Of a DNA stretch of 40,316 nt, positions 2,427 through 40,111 are shown one piece after another. Source of the stretch: a virus; the IMG/VR virus record IMGVR_UViG_3300009375_000007, positions 1 to 40,316 of that record; one strand, 5' to 3'. Within the stretch, counting starts at the first letter, position 1; each line of letters opens with the position of its first letter. Position numbers and translations under genes: made by a program. The notes beneath the pieces are model-generated. The model was not told the origin of the DNA and did no database searches. It saw nothing but the letters and a program-made list of their open reading frames with translations.

Positions 2427-4067
2427 ATGCCGACATATGATGAGCAAAAACAGATAAAAAAACAAAAAATAACACCAAGCGAGGTTAAAGATTTTGGTAA
2501 AGGAGTTGAAGCTAGCTATAATCGTCATAGCTTATTTCAATACTCTGGCATGCCGTTTAATGGGAATAATTTAAGTAAAGACGCATATTTATTAGAAAAT
2601 TGGGCAAACGTGAGCTCTCCTGGCTCAAAGAACCCAACAGCAAAAAACATTATTAATAATCTATCTGCATTTACAGCTAGTACGTTTACAGCTGAAGATT
2701 TTATGTCAGCTAGATATTATGGTAAGATCCCAAATAATCAACTAATTACGTTAAGAAGATTTGCAATACCACATGCAGATAATTTATTTGAAAATTCAGC
2801 CCAAGATGAAGATGGAGACTGGCATAACACAGAAACACCAGATATGGCAAGGGCTGTAACCTGGATAAGCGAAGCTACTAACAATAAACTTTCTGAAATT
2901 TTAAACTTCGGTGTTGGCTTTAACTGGGGAGAAGTTGAAGGTGTTTCACAGACTTTAGATGCAACTGGTGGCTCTATGGCAGATAGTGGCATCGGTCAAA
3001 TCGATAGCGGCTTTTTTCAATCAATGCTAACAGCTGGACAAGGCTTAAATCCAGCACAGACTGCAAATTTAAAGAACTTTGAAGGCTCAGATCCGCTAGC
3101 AGAAACTTACCCAAATTTTATTCATGGGCCATTGAATGTTATACACAAAGTATTAATGCAAGAACGGGGCTTAAAGTATGAGCAGGAGTTTACTCTTAAT
3201 TTTTATTATGACTTAAGAGCTATTGATGGGGCTAATCCAAAACTTAATTTTCTTGATTTATTTTCTAATTTGCTTATATTGACATATAACACCGCACCAT
3301 TCTGGGGAGGCGAGTCTAGAATGAAGCCTAATTTTAGAGCAGGCAAACCGTTGGGCGATTATAATGCTTTAATTGAAGGAGACTATAAAAAATTTACAGA
3401 AACTGCATTTCAAGACATGAAAACCATGATTGATACTTTAACTTCTGAGGAAGATGGAACACAACCAGAAGGCTGGCTTTCGTGGTTTAAGAAAGCAGGA
3501 AATGCTCTCAGTAAGATTACAAGCAATACATTAGGTAGTTTTTTTATGAAAACTATAGCAGGCAAGCAGAATCATCAAGTAGTTAAAGCTTTATTAAGTG
3601 GAGATCCAGTGGGTCAGTGGCATTTAACAATTGGCAACCCTTTAAATCCAGTTGCAATGATTGGGAATTTAGTATTAGAAGATGCTAAATTTGAGTTTGA
3701 AGGGCCACTTGGTTTTGATGATTTTCCATCTGGCTTAAAAATGACAGTTACGTTAAAGCCTGGTAGAGCAAGAGATAAATCTGAAATTGAAAGTATGTTT
3801 AATTGCGGTAGAGGAAGATTATATTATGACCCAGAGAAACCAAGAGAAGGGTCGCCTTCTGTAGATTTTCTCAGTTCAGGGTATGAAGGAAATAAAGCAT
3901 CAGTATATGGGACGAATCCAGAAACAGACGGGCTATTATCTGGGAAATTTCCAGCGATGAATGAAGATCTTAAGATGCAGTATAAACACATGAATGCTGG
4001 AATGTCAAACGAATACAATGCTAACCATGCACTAAAAAATCATGTTATTAATTCAATAAATCACTAA
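2427..4067 (+). CDS. Virion protein, tail/baseplate (unassigned), 546 aa
   Basis: Large soluble protein judged to be structural from composition and position at the head of the baseplate cluster. Residues about 65-110 hold a YYGKIPNNQLITLRRF stretch and residues about 395-460 a beta-rich segment (WHLTIGNPLNPVAMIG, then LKMTVTLKPGRARDK), the two most conserved-looking parts. The C-terminal segment resembles the folded domains of tail-tube-end or initiator proteins (functionally T4 gp48/gp54), but I cannot confirm this without a structural search. It is too short and not helical enough for a tape measure. The ATG lacks an SD. The next gene begins one base after its stop. Confidence 0.8.
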   Translation: MPTYDEQKQIKKQKITPSEVKDFGKGVEASYNRHSLFQYSGMPFNGNNLSKDAYLLENWANVSSPGSKNPTAKNIINNLSAFTASTFTAEDFMSARYYGKIPNNQLITLRRFAIPHADNLFENSAQDEDGDWHNTETPDMARAVTWISEATNNKLSEILNFGVGFNWGEVEGVSQTLDATGGSMADSGIGQIDSGFFQSMLTAGQGLNPAQTANLKNFEGSDPLAETYPNFIHGPLNVIHKVLMQERGLKYEQEFTLNFYYDLRAIDGANPKLNFLDLFSNLLILTYNTAPFWGGESRMKPNFRAGKPLGDYNALIEGDYKKFTETAFQDMKTMIDTLTSEEDGTQPEGWLSWFKKAGNALSKITSNTLGSFFMKTIAGKQNHQVVKALLSGDPVGQWHLTIGNPLNPVAMIGNLVLEDAKFEFEGPLGFDDFPSGLKMTVTLKPGRARDKSEIESMFNCGRGRLYYDPEKPREGSPSVDFLSSGYEGNKASVYGTNPETDGLLSGKFPAMNEDLKMQYKHMNAGMSNEYNANHALKNHVINSINH

Positions 4068-8416: not shown

Positions 8417-9205
8417 ATGGAACTAACAGATATTAAAAAACCAGATAGATTAAGCGACATCGATTGGCTGGGTGAAGTCGTTGATATTGAAGATCCTCAT
8501 TTTTTAGGAAGGGTTAAAGTTAAAGTGTTTGGGAAGTTTGATTTGCTTGAAAACGATTTTATCCCATGGGCAACGCCCAGCACCTCTATAACTGCCGCAT
8601 CAGAAACAGGAGGAGGTTTTTTCTCTGTTCCAAAGCTTAATAGTATAGTAAGCATCAAGTTCGATAATAATTCTATATATGAACCTGTATATTTTTATAA
8701 TGTGCATATTTCAAAAGACTTAAAGACAGAATTAGAGCCAAGCTATTTAAATGCGCATTCTTTAATATATGATACTATCATAGAAGGTGGCTTAAAAATT
8801 TATTTCACAGAGAATGAATCTGGGAGTGGCACAACGGGGCTGGTGTTTAACTATAAAGACACCGTAATAAACATAAAGAACGATAGCTCTGTTGAGGTTA
8901 AGAACCCAAATGGTGATAATATCGAAATGCTTAACGATGGAAACATCAATATAAAATGTTCTAGCAATGTGACTTTAAAGAACGAAGGAAACACTATATT
9001 AACAACAAAGGGAAATATACATCTTAACTCAAGCAATACAGATTCAGTAAGACTTGGTGCAGGGTTTGCTGAGAAAATTCTAAAGGGCCAGACTTTTCAA
9101 AGACTTTATAACTCACATACACATCCGACACCTACTGGCCCGAGTGGCCCGCCAATCCAGCAATCAATACCAACAGATTTATCTAAAACAACAAAATCAG
9201 ACTAA
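8417..9205 (+). CDS. Baseplate central spike, gp5/gpV-like
   Basis: Forms the trimeric membrane-piercing needle below the hub. Residues about 15-100 are an OB-fold domain (WLGEVVDIEDPHFLGRVKVK, then FIPWATP), as in gp5 and gpV. Residues about 118-212 are short alternating strands (IINIKN, VEVKN, INIKCSS, VTLKN, IHLNSS) forming a beta-prism or helix. The tip region HTHPTPTGPSGPP (234-246) contains the HxH motif that binds iron at the spike apex in P2 gpV and phi92 gp138. No lysozyme domain is present, unlike T4 gp5 (575 residues). An SD-like GGAG lies about ten bases upstream. The next gene starts in its stop codon region (TAATG). Confidence 0.87.
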   Translation: MELTDIKKPDRLSDIDWLGEVVDIEDPHFLGRVKVKVFGKFDLLENDFIPWATPSTSITAASETGGGFFSVPKLNSIVSIKFDNNSIYEPVYFYNVHISKDLKTELEPSYLNAHSLIYDTIIEGGLKIYFTENESGSGTTGLVFNYKDTVINIKNDSSVEVKNPNGDNIEMLNDGNINIKCSSNVTLKNEGNTILTTKGNIHLNSSNTDSVRLGAGFAEKILKGQTFQRLYNSHTHPTPTGPSGPPIQQSIPTDLSKTTKSD

Positions 9206-10925: not shown

Positions 10926-10955
10926 TTGAAACATTCATAATTCTTCGCATATAAT
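10926..10955 (+). promoter_or_regulatory. Sigma70-like promoter of the S1 homologue
   Basis: TTGAAA at 10926-10931 (five of six to TTGACA) and a perfect TATAAT at 10950-10955 are separated by 18 bases. It lies in a 73-base gap just before the S1 homologue, with transcription expected to start near 10962. This is the best promoter I see in the window; it would let host RNA polymerase express the gene apart from the late tail genes. Confidence 0.7.
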
Positions 10956-10979
10956 ACATGTATGGAACATTTAACAACA

Positions 10980-10985
10980 GAAGGA
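10980..10985 (+). promoter_or_regulatory. Shine-Dalgarno sequence of the S1 homologue
   Basis: GAAGGA lies seven bases before the ATG at 10993, a good SD at normal spacing. It stands out because most neighbouring genes have only A/T-rich DNA at this position, and it fixes the start of the S1 homologue. Confidence 0.6.
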
Positions 10986-10992
10986 AAAGCAC

Positions 10993-12129
10993 ATGATTAA
11001 TTATTTAAGCAAAGATCTTTTAGAAGATGTTAGAGTCGTTAAAAGAGAAGATTTAAATGAAGAAGATGAATTTACTGGAATATCAGGCTTTAGTGATGAA
11101 CACTTAAAATTAATTTATGATTCACTAGATTCATTTTATATACCAAAGGGTGGAGATATGATAAACACCCGAGTAATTGGAAAAACAAAAACAGATATAA
11201 TTGTTGAAATGAATGGTAAGCAGTCAGCGTATATGTCTTTAAAAAAAGAACCTACACGCTTAACTGAGAAGATAGAAATAGGAGATATGGTTGATGTAAT
11301 GGTCTTAGAAGCTGACAGCAAGAGTGCTACTAAAAAAGAAAGCGAGCCTATTGAAGTTTCAATGGAACTAGCAGAACTCCAAACCACATATAATAATATG
11401 AGAACTGCAATTTCTGAAGAAGATAATACTGCATATCTTGGCACGATAAAAGATATGATTGATAACGGTGGCTATATAATTAACGTAGCAGGGGTTGATT
11501 GTTTTATGCCAGGTTCTCATGCAGGAATTAATAAACTTTATGATTTTGCAAGTATCATTGGTGATGAGGTTTATGTTATACCTATCAATTACGTAAGAAG
11601 TAGAGATATGATAGTTGTATCGCATAAAAAATTCTTAGAATTGCAAAAACCATTAGCACTAGAAACTCTTAGAGATAATATGAGTGAACAAAAAACGGGC
11701 TCAGTCACAGGTACTACTAAATTCGGAATTTTTTGTGAATTTGATGACTGTTTAACTGGGATGATTCATAAGAGTGAATTTACAGATGAGCTTAGAGAAA
11801 GACATAGCAATAGTCTAGTTAAACCAGGTGAAAGCATAGATTTCTATATTAAAGAGATTATATCTGAAAAGAAGATTATACTGAGTTTAGAAAAATATGA
11901 AAACCCATGGGATAACATAGAAGAAAAATACCCAATCACTAGTAACGTAGAAGTGACAGTTACTTCTATTAAAAATTATGGTGCCTTTATTAAATTCGAA
12001 GAAGGGGTCTTTGGTCTGGTACCCATTAAAGAACTAACTAGTAAAAAAGTCAACGAAGGTGATAAAATAGAAGTTACTATTACTGGCATTGATAAAGGAT
12101 CTAAGAAGATTTTTACAACTTTTCGATAA
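10993..12129 (+). CDS. Ribosomal protein S1 homologue with four S1 domains
   Basis: RNA-binding protein of 378 residues made of four OB-fold S1 domains, at about 50-125, 143-215, 232-302 and 310-378. Domains 3 and 4 are the most typical: GSVTGTTKFGIFCEFDDCLTG, then VTVTSIKNYGAFIKFEEGVFGL and VNEGDKIEVTITGID. Cellular S1 binds mRNA and helps the 30S subunit start on messages with weak or no SD; E. coli S1 has six domains (557 residues), and the product here is short. Phage-encoded S1-type proteins are known from viral genome surveys. It has its own sigma70-like promoter and SD inside a late tail cluster. It could aid phage translation, alter host translation or act in RNA protection; it is not a structural protein by sequence. 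Confidence 0.87.
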   Translation: MINYLSKDLLEDVRVVKREDLNEEDEFTGISGFSDEHLKLIYDSLDSFYIPKGGDMINTRVIGKTKTDIIVEMNGKQSAYMSLKKEPTRLTEKIEIGDMVDVMVLEADSKSATKKESEPIEVSMELAELQTTYNNMRTAISEEDNTAYLGTIKDMIDNGGYIINVAGVDCFMPGSHAGINKLYDFASIIGDEVYVIPINYVRSRDMIVVSHKKFLELQKPLALETLRDNMSEQKTGSVTGTTKFGIFCEFDDCLTGMIHKSEFTDELRERHSNSLVKPGESIDFYIKEIISEKKIILSLEKYENPWDNIEEKYPITSNVEVTVTSIKNYGAFIKFEEGVFGLVPIKELTSKKVNEGDKIEVTITGIDKGSKKIFTTFR

Positions 12130-12166
12130 GCTATTGCACTTATATTGTTAAGATTGTAATATATAA

Positions 12167-12174
12167 TATAAATA
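12167..12174 (+). promoter_or_regulatory. T4-late-type promoter word TATAAATA
   Basis: An exact match to the T4 late promoter consensus sits in the 57-base gap between the S1 homologue and the amidoligase-like gene; transcription would start near 12180, leaving a leader of about seven bases. TTGTTA at 12145-12150 with 16-base spacing is a weak alternative -35 box. In AT-rich DNA an 8-base match can occur by chance. Confidence 0.4.
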
Positions 12175-12186
12175 TAATGCACATGA

Positions 12187-13476
12187 ATGACAACAGAAAG
12201 TACACTTAATGAAGTTTTAATTAATTCACTAGTTGGATTTGAATTTGAATTTTATTATGATAAAAAGTCAGAAGAAGCTAGTAGAGAACTTCAAAAATAT
12301 CTTAATAAAGATGTTATTGTAATTGATAAAGTTCATAGTAAGCTTGAGCCAACTGATAAAGTCTTTAAGCTTGAGCCAGATTATTCAGGTGGCAAAGATT
12401 TAAAAGAATTAATTACAGGTCCTTTAAAATATAATGAAGCTAGATTATTGCTTATATCAATGCTTAAGTGGATTGATAAAAATGCATATACCACAGATAA
12501 ATGTTCGATTCATTTAAACATATCATTTAATTCAAGATTTGCAAATGTCTATAGGTTAAATGTATTAAAGTTTATTTTAGACTTTGATGAAGATAAAGTC
12601 TATAGCATGTTTCCGCATAGACAAAATTCTGTTTATGCAAAGTCTATCAAATATGTTGTCCCAAGACATATAGATTCTCAACCTAGTACATCTGAAGTTT
12701 CAATTACTAATTACGTATACCCTATCGAAAAATACTATGGTATAAACTTTAGTAAAATAGCAAAGAATTATATTGAATTCAGGTATATTGGTGGGAAAGA
12801 TTATCAAAAACAAGTTAATGATATATTAAGCCTGTTAGAGTATTTTATAGAGTTTTTATATAGTAACGTTTCAGATACTGAATTTACAGCATTACATAAA
12901 ATTAAACTTGATAAATTAATTAATGATAATAAAAAGATACACGAATCATTTAAGAGTGTAGATTATTTTATTAAGCATTTTCCAGATATACAATTTACAG
13001 TTGATTTAAAAGATGATATTGAGATACTTAAACTTTATTGGAATAAAATAAGAGTTCAAATAATTGATTTATTAGTTATTGGTTCTTTTTCAAAGGGTCT
13101 AATAAATTATGATTCAGATACTGGGCGCTTACAAGTAAAAGATGCTAAATTAGAAAGAATATATAATATAGAAAAACTAGATTTAATAAGTTGTAAGCTT
13201 TCTGGTAATATTAAAAAAGCAGATATATTTAAATCAGATATATCAAGTTCAATATTAGAAGACTGCAACTTATTTGATCACTGTAAATGTAAAGAAAGTA
13301 AATTGAAAAATTCATATATAAATAGAACATCAGAATTAAATGACTGTTATATATTTGGACCATTATCAATCATGAATGGAACTATGAATGGCGGCATTTT
13401 TAGAGAAGGTAAAATAACAGGTATCTCTAAATTAAATAATGTCAAAGAAATTGATGTAAAACAAATTGAAGGATAA
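12187..13476 (+). CDS. Amidoligase-like enzyme with pentapeptide-like C-terminal region
   Basis: Residues 10-235 carry the signature of the glutamine-synthetase-fold amidoligase family: GFEFEF (17-22), EPDYSGG with a following ELITGPL (63-80), CSIHLNISF (106-114) and YIEFRYIGG (195-203). Family members are proposed to use ATP to form amide bonds, for example on peptides or proteins. After a helical linker, residues about 320-415 show short repeats (KLDLISCKL, KADIFKSDI, SILEDCNLF, KESKLKNSYI) like a pentapeptide-type beta-helix. That fusion is unusual. The gene overlaps the next stop-start (TAATG) and lies in the baseplate cluster. ATG has no SD. Activity and substrate are unknown; a structural derivative that lost catalysis is possible. 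Confidence 0.6.
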   Translation: MTTESTLNEVLINSLVGFEFEFYYDKKSEEASRELQKYLNKDVIVIDKVHSKLEPTDKVFKLEPDYSGGKDLKELITGPLKYNEARLLLISMLKWIDKNAYTTDKCSIHLNISFNSRFANVYRLNVLKFILDFDEDKVYSMFPHRQNSVYAKSIKYVVPRHIDSQPSTSEVSITNYVYPIEKYYGINFSKIAKNYIEFRYIGGKDYQKQVNDILSLLEYFIEFLYSNVSDTEFTALHKIKLDKLINDNKKIHESFKSVDYFIKHFPDIQFTVDLKDDIEILKLYWNKIRVQIIDLLVIGSFSKGLINYDSDTGRLQVKDAKLERIYNIEKLDLISCKLSGNIKKADIFKSDISSSILEDCNLFDHCKCKESKLKNSYINRTSELNDCYIFGPLSIMNGTMNGGIFREGKITGISKLNNVKEIDVKQIEG

Positions 13477-14721: not shown

Positions 14722-16452
14722 ATGATTAGTAACAAGAAAGATTTAAGATTTATAAGCAGAACTAGAGTTTCAGCTAATGACATGTTTAATGACGCAAAAG
14801 CATATTTAATTAGTACTTACAATAAAGCAAGCACAGTATTTACATCAGCTAGCCCATTTGCACAGATATTAAAAGTAATGTCAGAATTGACAGAACTTAT
14901 ATTGTATTATATAGAAGATGCTACGGTTGAACAGAATATTGCAACAGCAACAAACAAATCAAGCATTTACGGTTTAGCAAGACTTACTGGCCATAATCCT
15001 ACTAGAGGGATAAGTGCAATTGGTGAAATCAAAATTCGCTACATGCCAGAAGTTAAGTTAGATGATATAGCTGGAGATTATATTTTTATACCAAATAGAG
15101 CAAAACTTAAATTAGCAACTAATGGCTTAATTTATTCTATTTCTGATAATCTTGATTATATTAAAATGGATAAGACCAAGCTTAACAGGTTTGTAAGCGT
15201 AAAAATTACCCAAGGGATTTTTGATAAACAAACAGTTACTGGTACTGGTAAATCAATGCAAAGTTTTAACATCGATACGCAAGGTAGAACAGATCATCAC
15301 GAAGTAACAGTTACAGTAAATGGAAAGATATGGCCAAATTTCGATTCATTATATGATATGAGAAGAAATACAGAAGGTTGCTTAATTAAAACTGGCATTT
15401 CAGGCGGAATTGACATATTCTTTGGAAATAATCATTTCGGGAAAATCCCAGATCTCGGGTCTGTTATTGACGTAGAGTACATTAACACTGACGGGAGCAG
15501 AGGAAATGTCGCAGACTCAGCAGACGTATTCTATATGTTTGAAGATGAAGGCTTTGATTCTTTAGGGGCGCCGGTGGACTTAAACGAGTTTCTTGTGATA
15601 GAAACTAAAATTTCACCTAAAATGGGAGCAAATTCTGAAGATACAAACTTTACAAAAGTTATAGCCCCATACGCAAGTCGTAATTTTACACTATCACACC
15701 CTAGAGACTTTGAATACTTTTTGTCTAGATATGATTCATTCTCTCACATTGAAGCATATAATACGGCTGGAGATGACAACTTAGAAGATGATAACATCAT
15801 TTATTTAAATATTTTGCCAGATGTTGCTAAGAAAATATATGGGACTTACGACTATTTTCAATTTCCAGAAGAGGAGTTTACATTAAGCCCCTCAGAAATG
15901 CTAATGCTTAAGACAGCATTAAACAAATCAGGTCAGCTTATGATTGGGTCGGAGGTTCAGTTTATAGACCAGCATGTTACAAGATATGCAGTGGAATTGC
16001 ACATTAGATACTGGAATAATACAGACCCAGAAAACATATATTATGATATTAGAAAAAGTTTAAGTGAATATTTTTTAAATAATAAAAGAAAAGACAGAAT
16101 ACCAAGGTCTGATATAACAGGTATAGTTGAAGATATTGAAGGAGTTGACTCTTTAACAATTCAATATTATAGTCAAGATTATGAAGCACTTAAGCAAATA
16201 CCTAATGCTAATTTAGAACAGCTGCGTAATAAGTACTTTGATAAGTTAGGAGATATTCGCGTTCAAGAAGGAAAATTTCCAATCATAAGAGGAGGGTGGG
16301 TTACAGCAGATGGTATTGAAGTTATAGATGAACCCTATTATATGATAGGTAACAGCGAATCTGAAGAAGGAAGTAAAATGTATAGTTTAAAGGTAGTTTT
16401 TGATGAAGCTTTAACTTATAAATCAAACATTAGAATTAAATCATCACAATGA
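14722..16452 (+). CDS. 6: Baseplate wedge protein gp6/gpJ-like
   Basis: Main wedge subunit that with gp25 and the gp7-type protein forms the inner baseplate ring. The N-terminus (FISRTRVSANDMFNDAKAYL) and the helix MSELTELILYYIEDATVEQN (residues about 53-72) followed by ATNKSSIYGLARLTGHNP are characteristic of gp6/gpJ proteins. A beta-rich middle and the C-terminal LSEYFLNNKRKDRIPRSDI with ITGIVEDIEGVDSL match the J-domain layout. The 576-residue size compares with 660 in T4 gp6. It follows gp25 by ten bases, and its stop overlaps the next start by four (ATGA). Confidence 0.85.
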   Translation: MISNKKDLRFISRTRVSANDMFNDAKAYLISTYNKASTVFTSASPFAQILKVMSELTELILYYIEDATVEQNIATATNKSSIYGLARLTGHNPTRGISAIGEIKIRYMPEVKLDDIAGDYIFIPNRAKLKLATNGLIYSISDNLDYIKMDKTKLNRFVSVKITQGIFDKQTVTGTGKSMQSFNIDTQGRTDHHEVTVTVNGKIWPNFDSLYDMRRNTEGCLIKTGISGGIDIFFGNNHFGKIPDLGSVIDVEYINTDGSRGNVADSADVFYMFEDEGFDSLGAPVDLNEFLVIETKISPKMGANSEDTNFTKVIAPYASRNFTLSHPRDFEYFLSRYDSFSHIEAYNTAGDDNLEDDNIIYLNILPDVAKKIYGTYDYFQFPEEEFTLSPSEMLMLKTALNKSGQLMIGSEVQFIDQHVTRYAVELHIRYWNNTDPENIYYDIRKSLSEYFLNNKRKDRIPRSDITGIVEDIEGVDSLTIQYYSQDYEALKQIPNANLEQLRNKYFDKLGDIRVQEGKFPIIRGGWVTADGIEVIDEPYYMIGNSESEEGSKMYSLKVVFDEALTYKSNIRIKSSQ

Positions 16453-38118: not shown

Positions 38119-39033
38119 ATGGCAAAGAACGAACTAGACATTTTTAATATCGGCGTAGACGATATTGAAATGCATAAACGAGAAAAGACACAATCTGATA
38201 TTTATAAACCCAATGCACTAGATGGGAAAGATGGCGTTTATAAAGCACTAATCAGATTCATCCCAAACATAAACAATCCTACAAATCCATTAATTCATAA
38301 ATGGGTATATTGGCTGACAGATCAAAATGGTGATGGCAAACTTATAGATTCACCAGGCACTGTTAATAAAGAAGATCCAATTGCAAAGTTGTTTTTTAAG
38401 CTTCGTAAATCTGAATCTGCAGTAGACCGCAAGAATAGCGAAAAGCTTAAGCGCAGAGAACAGTTTTATGGCATTGTTCAAGTTATTAAAGACCCACAGA
38501 ATCCTGATTTAGAAGGTACATTGAAGGTTTTTAAATTTGGTTACAAGATTAAGCAAAAACTTGATGAAGAATTAAAACCTGCATTTGGTGAAGCTACTCA
38601 AATTTTTGATCTTTTTGATGGAAAGAACTTTGAGTTAATTATCACAAGACAGGGCGATTTTAATAATTATGATTCAAGTAAGTTTTCTAACTCAACATCT
38701 CCAATTGCTATTGATGATGTAGAAATGGAACGCAACACAGAAAGTATGGATCTTATTAGAACGCATTTGACTGATAATACACCAAACGTCTCTGTATTCG
38801 AGTATAAAGAATGGGATGATGAAACACATGACTGGGTAAATACATGCTTAAACCAGTATAGAAGTCCTGGGGAGTATATCACATCCACATCTGCTCCAGT
38901 AGTTGAAGAAAAACAAGTAGCGACATCTTTAGTAAATGATGAACAGCCGACTGATACAGAAGTAGCTGGTGATACCAATAAAGATACAGGCGACGAAGCT
39001 CTTGATGATTTCCTTAATAACTTAGATATTTAA
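38119..39033 (+). CDS. 32: Single-stranded DNA-binding protein, gp32-like
   Basis: Coats ssDNA during replication and recombination. It aligns with T4 gp32 along its length: basic N-terminal KREK (20-23), IRFIPN (45-50), IVQVIKDPQNPDLEG (119-133), FKFGYKIKQK (138-147), DFNNYDSSKF (180-189, gp32 has GFSNYDESKF) and an acidic tail ending EALDDFLNNLDI used for protein contacts. Length 304 against 301. The zinc site of T4 gp32 is missing: there is only one cysteine, and residues 68-87 replace the zinc loop. Followed after ten bases by the primase gene. ATG with AAGAGG upstream. Confidence 0.9.
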   Translation: MAKNELDIFNIGVDDIEMHKREKTQSDIYKPNALDGKDGVYKALIRFIPNINNPTNPLIHKWVYWLTDQNGDGKLIDSPGTVNKEDPIAKLFFKLRKSESAVDRKNSEKLKRREQFYGIVQVIKDPQNPDLEGTLKVFKFGYKIKQKLDEELKPAFGEATQIFDLFDGKNFELIITRQGDFNNYDSSKFSNSTSPIAIDDVEMERNTESMDLIRTHLTDNTPNVSVFEYKEWDDETHDWVNTCLNQYRSPGEYITSTSAPVVEEKQVATSLVNDEQPTDTEVAGDTNKDTGDEALDDFLNNLDI

Positions 39034-39043
39034 GGTATAACTA

Positions 39044-40111
39044 ATGGAGGTAAATTCAGGTTTATTTGATGAAATAACAAGTTTAATTCATCAAATTTTA
39101 ACTGAGCAGCACTCTAATCATTCTAAACAAAGCATGCGGGACATGCAAGGTCGTTTAAACTTTGCATGCCCGTATTGCGGGGATTCTGCAATTGACAAGA
39201 ATAAAGCAAGAGGCAACTTATATTTCGATACGCTCCAGTATCACTGTTATAACTGTGAAAAGCACACAGACATATATAGATTGTTTAAAGACTTTTCAGT
39301 TTCATTCAAAGACCCAAACACAACATTAAATGTTTTAGATTATATTAAAGCAAATGCCAGTTTTGGAAAACAAGCAGAAGTTTTAGAATTTGAACTATTT
39401 GAGAAACTTAAAAGATATGCAGTCCCAATAAGTAAAATTCAAGACAAGTTTAAATGCTATCCAATTTCACAAAATAGCACAATCTATCCGTATCTTAAAA
39501 AAAGACTTATACATATATTCTCCCAGTCATTTTTGTATTCTGAAAAGTATGATAAGTTGTATATATTAAATCTTTTGCCTACTGGAGATGTAGTATCTTT
39601 CCAAATTAGAGATATGAAAGGCGGGCCAAACAAGTATATGACATTTAATCTTGAAAAAATTATAAACAACTGTAAGCTAGATTCAATGCATTTAACAGAA
39701 GAAGCTGAAGAAGTAAAAAACATTAATAAGTTATCAACATTGTTTGGTATTGGGACTATTGACTTTTCAAAATCTTTTACTTTGTTTGAAGGGCCATTAG
39801 ATGCAAAGTTTTTATATAACTCATTAGGTCTAACCACAGCTGGTAGAAATACTATAGAATTTGACGAGCTAAGTACAGTCAGATATTTATTTGATAACGA
39901 TGAAGTAGGTAAGCGCATTATGCTTGAAAAGTTAAAAGCAGGAAAGCACGTTTTTTTATGGAAAAAGTTAATTGATGATTATAATTTATATAAATATAAT
40001 ATCAAGGATTTGAACGATTTAATGATGATATGTTATAAAAACAAAATAAATGCACATAGACATATTGAAAAGTATTTCTCAAACGAAAGTTTGGATATGA
40101 TTTATGTATAA
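39044..40111 (+). CDS. 61: DNA primase, gp61/DnaG-like
   Basis: Makes RNA primers for lagging-strand synthesis. The zinc-binding motif is C42-x2-C45 (CPYCGDSAID) and C68-x2-C71 (CYNC). The TOPRIM domain has the catalytic glutamate E249 in LFEGPLDAKF and the acidic D284-N-D286 followed by EVGKR. The 355-residue length is near T4 gp61 (342). It works with a helicase not in this window and with the SSB encoded upstream. The start ATG carries a GGAGG two bases in, so the SD-like string lies inside the gene; I found no better start. The next gene overlaps by eight bases. Confidence 0.87.
   Translation: MEVNSGLFDEITSLIHQILTEQHSNHSKQSMRDMQGRLNFACPYCGDSAIDKNKARGNLYFDTLQYHCYNCEKHTDIYRLFKDFSVSFKDPNTTLNVLDYIKANASFGKQAEVLEFELFEKLKRYAVPISKIQDKFKCYPISQNSTIYPYLKKRLIHIFSQSFLYSEKYDKLYILNLLPTGDVVSFQIRDMKGGPNKYMTFNLEKIINNCKLDSMHLTEEAEEVKNINKLSTLFGIGTIDFSKSFTLFEGPLDAKFLYNSLGLTTAGRNTIEFDELSTVRYLFDNDEVGKRIMLEKLKAGKHVFLWKKLIDDYNLYKYNIKDLNDLMMICYKNKINAHRHIEKYFSNESLDMIYV

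Follow-up and report, generated by a model that had tools for sequence, protein, structure and literature searches.

A bS1-like ribosomal protein gene in the baseplate cluster of very large phages and the late-promoter-like box upstream of it

A ribosomal protein gene among the tail genes of a phage raises the question of when that protein is made and on which ribosomal or other target it acts. The locus considered here lies in a window of 40,316 nucleotides (the whole of IMG/VR record IMGVR_UViG_3300009375_000007), in which an open reading frame at 10993-12129 on the + strand, beginning with ATG, encodes a 378-residue bS1-like protein of a very large phage. A sequence-only reading of this DNA had described a phage S1 gene that carries its own signals for separate, probably earlier, expression; the gene and a separate promoter-like element upstream of it are confirmed by our analysis, while the sigma70 promoter and the Shine-Dalgarno (SD) sequence that it read there are not.

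The S1 gene and its product

The gene and the parts of its product are as follows.

10993-12129, + strand: phage bS1-like gene, 378 amino acids; a tail, a short helix and OB1-OB4, without OB5-OB6
10993-11091, + strand: N-terminal tail, codons 1-33, predicted to be disordered (pLDDT below 50)
11095-11124, + strand: helix before OB1, codons 35-44, with the conserved aromatic Y42; candidate uS2-docking helix
11152-11361, + strand: OB1, with E72/K76 at the positions of E. coli D39/K43 (uS2 contacts)
11428-11622, + strand: OB2, with Y161/F171 at the positions of E. coli F120/F130 (mRNA pocket)
11686-11889, + strand: OB3, from the AlphaFold model
11938-12123, + strand: OB4, from the AlphaFold model

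Judged by its sequence, the product is a real, truncated bS1 homologue with OB1-OB4. Its description as a four-domain S1 homologue is borne out by the Pfam S1 domains (2.3e-24), by phmmer searches of the PDB, in which bS1 chains were matched at 1.7e-38 (9zcd) and 5e-31 (E. coli) with OB1-OB4 aligned collinearly and unbroken, and by four predicted OB folds. A profile of the family, built from 42 phage relatives, matched E. coli bS1 over residues 16-347 (7e-62) and Flavobacteriia bS1 with OB1-OB4 in register (1.7e-27); a search of PHROGs gave no family for the window's S1. With four OB domains only, the protein does not have the six-domain layout of Gram-negative bS1; the domain number of cellular bS1 varies among bacteria from 4 to 6 (PMC6375957). 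The AlphaFold model (pLDDT 84.6) comprises a disordered tail, a helix at residues 35-44 and the four OB folds, and its top Foldseek match is bS1 in the 30S mRNA-delivery complex (2.1e-26). Over the whole chain the TM scores are low (0.39 against this top match), a result to be expected were the domains hinged differently; lower-ranked matches include NusA and RNase R.

In E. coli, bS1 docks on uS2 through F5 and F9 of an N-terminal helix together with D39 and K43 of OB1 (PMC4288201), and K117, F120 and F130 of OB2 hold the mRNA (PMC10123108). We compared 42 phage S1s with E. coli bS1 at these positions. The position of D39 is occupied by Asp in 39 of the 42 and by Glu in three (E72 in the window), and that of K43 by Arg in 41 and Lys in one (K76 in the window). 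In the OB2 pocket the F120 position is Tyr (Y161) and the F130 position Phe (F171) in all 42 proteins; K117 is not kept among them. The position of Y42 is aromatic (Tyr or Phe) in 41/42, within the helix 35-44 that is predicted at low confidence, and the 42 phage proteins do not match E. coli F5/F9 residue by residue. An N-terminal F.W..[YFH] motif is found in 57/66 phage S1s and in 80/80 Flavobacteriia bS1s, and is missing from the N-terminus of the window's S1.

The general idea of ribosome docking, raised in the sequence-only reading, gains support from the kept uS2-contact positions and OB2 aromatics and from a fold like that of bS1 on the 30S subunit. Since OB4 of bS1 has been placed near mRNA positions -12 to -15 (PMC6847099), OB1-OB4 make up the piece that spans uS2 to the leader. 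Docking of the phage S1 on the 30S subunit, and a preference for phage mRNA, may thus be proposed from its sequence. Lak-phage S1s have a charged tail in place of OB4 and seemingly lack that domain, so the full set OB1-OB4 is not essential everywhere.

A fixed slot in the baseplate cluster and the ancestry of S1

The genes that define the surroundings of S1 are the following.

2427-4067, + strand: g5, third box-bearing gene of the cluster (26/28 relatives)
8417-9205, + strand: g9, gp5-like baseplate hub protein (Phage_base_V), bounding the conserved slot on its upstream side
12187-13476, + strand: g13, Amidoligase_2-like (PF12224), always adjoining S1
14722-16452, + strand: g16, baseplate wedge subunit, S1-independent bait

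S1 does lie inside a tail cluster, given the gp5/base-V hub protein g9 and the wedge subunit g16; its description as lying between spike and wedge is a loose one, in that the immediate neighbours are the uncharacterised g11 and the Amidoligase_2-like g13. For the latter, the PF12224 match is seen in 8/20 relatives, at 8.5e-7 at best, and a search of the PDB with the g13 profile found nothing. Further along the same strand, after the tail cluster, the window carries a gp32-like SSB gene (38119) and a primase-like gene (39044) within 38119-40111.

An alignment search found relatives of S1 in at least 586 encoding stretches of IMG/VR. Among the best 80 of these at least 586 stretches, which we used for synteny, the order is g4-g9, a variable gap, S1, g13-g19 and g22, at about 40% identity, with the gap between g9 and S1 ranging from roughly 0.5 to 3.7 kb. 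The wedge protein g16 was then used as bait, so that contigs were picked independently of S1; 63 of them were testable, having both g16 and g13 with enough upstream sequence, and S1 stands immediately before g13 in 62, with the remaining one 2 kb upstream. The placement of S1, from which the sequence-only reading argued, is no peculiarity of this phage: all related contigs tested have S1 in this fixed slot. Moreover, S1 identity tracks that of g13 (r = 0.95) and g14 (r = 0.92), and none of 500 permutations reached values as high.

The nearest relative found among annotated phage records is LR756500 (462 kb), which has the same gene order as the window, and S1 relatives are found in the megaphages LR756500, LR745206, LR756501, LR756502 and LR756504. 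In several megaphages S1 lies outside the baseplate slot, in four of them near homologues of the tail genes g23/g24 or g27/g28. In a phylogenetic tree, the 29 sampled phage S1s, among them the proteins of Lak phages and further megaphages, group in a single clade with support of 100/100, separate from the sampled cellular S1s and not placed inside Bacteroidota. An origin of S1 within Bacteroidota is hinted at by the N-terminal motif and is not seen in the tree. That S1 is a recent stray host gene is ruled out by the clade, the synteny and the co-divergence with its neighbours; on the best explanation, S1 would belong to the core genes of a large huge-phage lineage and have been passed down vertically.

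Five phage-labelled records (CAKLQH020000011, OR846668, OR846962, MT835655 and MT836417) carry ordinary bacterial S1 genes, which adjoin cmk and ihf genes or are fused to IspH, and resemble host DNA. The small phage-labelled records with bS1 (Acinetobacter, Enterococcus, Listeria and faecal scaffolds) likewise look like host DNA; they entered the tree as outgroups only, and a misaligned Listeria row was left out.

Upstream signals, the late-promoter-like box and translation starts

The elements upstream of S1 and g13 are these.

10926-10931, + strand: TTGAAA, the supposed -35; at chance level and not conserved
10947-10956, + strand: S1 box, some 45 nt upstream of the ATG; it reads CATATAATA in the window, a variant of the clade consensus GATATATAAT
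10980-10985, + strand: GAAGGA, the supposed SD, 7 bases before the ATG; at chance level
12160-12167, + strand: g13 box TATATAAT, of the same class as the S1 box

TTGAAA (10926), an 18-base spacer, TATAAT (10950) and GAAGGA (10980) are all present as the sequence-only reading had them. Its view that they form the best sigma70 promoter of the window dissolves into chance: 20 kb contain 103 sigma70-like sites, against 106.8 +/- 9.6 in shuffled sequence, and a match of 11/12 is reached at three scanned sites, the S1 site and two others. Upstream of S1 in 58 relatives, a -35 with at least 4/6 bases occurs in 11, where 14.3 are expected from shuffled sequence, and no conserved -35 was found at a spacing of 16-18 bases. 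A host sigma70 promoter for S1 is rejected on the chance number of sites and the unconserved -35.

What is conserved is a single box, with which the TATAAT half in the window coincides in position. The box GATATATA is found exactly upstream of S1 in 49/58 relatives (0.3 expected) and with at most one mismatch in all 58 (8.7 expected); the window's own S1 box (CATATAAT) is a weaker variant. The exact box also stands before g13 in 53/57 relatives (0.4 expected) and before g5 in 26/28 (0.3-0.4 expected), at a median distance to the start of 28-37 nt for these three genes; the 15 other scorable cluster genes lack it. Beyond the cluster, the tail sheath, tail tube and head maturation protease genes have this box upstream in 4-5 of 5 long contigs, whereas the SSB and primase homologues g33/g34 do not in the five. 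In the first 12 loci the exact GATATATAAT had seemed to belong to S1 only; the wider GATATATA proved to occur at g5, g13, sheath, tube and protease too, and the idea of a promoter specific to S1 was given up. S1 does have a promoter-like element of its own, as had been claimed, of a kind other than host type: a single box without a -35, shared with late genes.

A gp55-like late sigma factor of 95-127 amino acids is encoded in 5/5 long contigs, including the window's, with matches to phrog_234 at 9e-11 and 1e-11 and a weak match to T4 gp55 itself (phmmer, 0.008). The clade shares the features of T4-type late promoters, namely an AT-rich -10 box without a -35 before late structural genes, and T4 late transcription (gp55, TATAAATA) likewise uses a single AT-rich box without a -35 before structural genes; the boxes differ (TATAAATA in T4, GATATATAA here) and the gp55 similarity is distant. 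The simplest reading of these sequences is that the box belongs to a T4-like late promoter class. As the box is common to late genes, lacks a -35 and is accompanied by a gp55-like sigma factor, a late promoter of its own is probable for S1, in place of an early host-type one. The earlier expression suggested for S1 sits poorly with a box common to g5, g13, sheath, tube and head protease and with the presence of this late sigma factor. The gap between S1 and g13 is typically about 54 nt, and as g13 is preceded by another box of this class, S1 forms a one-gene segment between two boxes.

A TTTTAA-type element lies downstream of the box in the S1 leader in 47/58 relatives, and before g5 and g13 in 1/27 and 9/57, respectively; in the S1 leader it is a candidate autoregulation site. 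Other motifs (GTATATTTACA, TATATTAGTA and TTTTATGTCA) are strongly over-represented upstream of genes in four contigs and may be further promoter classes.

The SD before S1 had been called clear. AAGGA is the sole 5-base SD core among 32 starts in the window, with 1.1 expected, and is what a chance match would give; an SD specific to S1 is rejected, as SD cores are at chance in the window and in its relatives. Start-site statistics on 715 genes from five contigs show 5-base SD cores at chance, an A frequency of 0.56-0.63 at -14 to -11 and of 0.61 at -3 (flank about 0.40), and depletion of ATG within -20 to -1 (68 against 171 +/- 11). The starts of F. johnsoniae have the same pattern (PMC6847099), and in vitro, initiation on an SD-less mRNA rose twofold when bS1 was added (PMC9976891). 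In the window's own contig, 4-base SD cores are somewhat enriched (15, with 7.0 expected) and the A peaks are weak, so the case for SD-less initiation and for a Bacteroidota host is better in the relatives than in this phage. The start sites suggest a Bacteroidota host for the lineage, and for the window's phage such a host is only probable.

A model for late use of S1, its alternatives and known systems

We propose, with an even measure of confidence and doubt, that a late-made bS1 docks on the host 30S subunit and favours A-rich, SD-less phage mRNAs. S1 would be transcribed from its own copy of the phage's late promoter, a single box of the GATATATAA type that host RNA polymerase would recognise together with the gp55-like phage sigma factor, at the time when sheath, tube, head protease and the tail genes nearby are transcribed. 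The protein would then dock on the host 30S subunit, replacing host bS1 or beside it, and hold the A-rich leaders of SD-less phage mRNAs, which would raise initiation on phage messages during mass production of virions. The homology, architecture, fixed slot, single clade, box class and contact residues can be read from the sequences, as can the SD-less A-rich starts in related contigs; from them we infer that the promoter works and when, that the protein binds ribosomes and prefers phage mRNA, and to which phylum the host belongs. Translation takeover, now placed in the late phase, is a good hypothesis on these grounds.

The retention of OB1-OB4 alone, with OB5-OB6 lost while the uS2-contact positions are conserved, would also suit a decoy or inhibitor, a truncated S1 that competes for uS2 or mRNA and shuts off host translation with no service to phage messages. 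We consider this unlikely, as placement with late structural genes is late for host shut-off, and a pure decoy would need neither the invariant OB2 pocket residues nor the kept RNA-binding domains OB3-OB4. Host S1 is a cofactor of the T4 RegB nuclease, and the phage S1 might similarly act away from the ribosome, whether by assisting a nuclease, by chaperoning RNA or by joining RNA polymerase during late transcription. Many kinds of RNA-binding protein contain S1 domains (PMC6375957), NusA and RNase R are among the weaker fold matches, and the docking helix is of low confidence; an off-ribosome role is nevertheless improbable in our view, given the full OB1-OB4 collinearity, the top fold matches to bS1 on the 30S subunit and the conserved uS2-contact positions. 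A third alternative takes S1 for a virion protein, made late, packaged or attached with the tail and delivered to the next host cell for immediate action there, much as packaging has been proposed for phage bS21 (PMC9723584); the fixed baseplate-cluster slot and a promoter class shared with sheath and tube would fit, but S1 has no structural motif and in several megaphages lies by other structural genes, outside the baseplate slot, which makes this alternative quite unlikely. That S1 is expressed early from a host sigma70 promoter and is supplied with an SD is very improbable: TTGAAA-18-TATAAT and GAAGGA exist, but such sites and SD cores occur at chance, the -35 is unconserved and the box is shared with late genes.

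Phage rpS1 and the takeover idea are already known: Al-Shayeb 2020 reported rpS1 in huge phages, proposed possible ribosome takeover and noted that the carriers rarely have SD sequences (PMC7162821). That protein belongs to the same family, and few SD sequences are found in the relatives described here as well. There, S1 was seen in few genomes and a true rpS1 was described as difficult to confirm, whereas here it appears as a core gene in a fixed slot, with OB1-OB4 that carry bS1 contact residues and with a late-class promoter-like box. The open-licence literature searched yielded no earlier account of the slot being fixed, of conservation across the lineage or of the late-class box. Bacterial bS1 (E. 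coli, Flavobacterium) has OB1-OB4 in register with the phage S1, which differs in lacking OB5-OB6, in forming the separate 100/100 clade and, in the window, in its N-terminus. A bS1 gene is likewise carried by the jumbo cyanophage PhiMa05, beside bL21/bL27 and traced to Vampirovibrio-like hosts (PMC13157829); the likeness is one of gene presence and was compared by description only.

The bS21 of Bacteroidota phages is reported to be expressed late with structural genes, and its packaging has been proposed (PMC9723584). Like S1, it is a protein of the 30S mRNA exit encoded near structural genes and proposed to favour phage mRNAs late; it differs in lying beside capsid genes on the opposite strand, whereas the window's S1 is a coding-strand gene of the baseplate cluster. 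Among the phages with S1, bS21 is also encoded in 7/14 contigs and in 4/7 megaphage records, and was not found in LR756500, the closest complete genome. These bS21 genes (62-79 amino acids) sit about 18-30 kb before S1 in a compact block of small genes, where their neighbours are alike in size in each of the seven contigs. Control of bS21 by the same box as S1 was not found, its gene lying in another block without the box.

A wider reading, which we regard as doubtful though worth stating, is that of late 'phage ribosomes' made in Bacteroidota by a very large and ancient phage lineage, with phage bS1, in many members together with bS21, and with S1, a late unit of one gene, perhaps regulating its own translation through its conserved TTTTAA leader. 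Phage bS1, with or without bS21, would take the place of the host's proteins at the mRNA exit of the 30S subunit, and SD-less A-rich phage messages would outcompete those of the host.

If late docking of the phage S1 on host ribosomes is correct, a ribosomal protein would be a core gene of this lineage, deployed with the structural genes, and not an occasional stolen gene. A bS1 that reads the A-rich leader is the leading guess for SD-less initiation in Bacteroidota, and the phage S1, which keeps the uS2-to-leader part of bS1, would be a natural minimal protein with which to test it. The locus would then provide a checkable, concrete case of huge phages redirecting host ribosomes.
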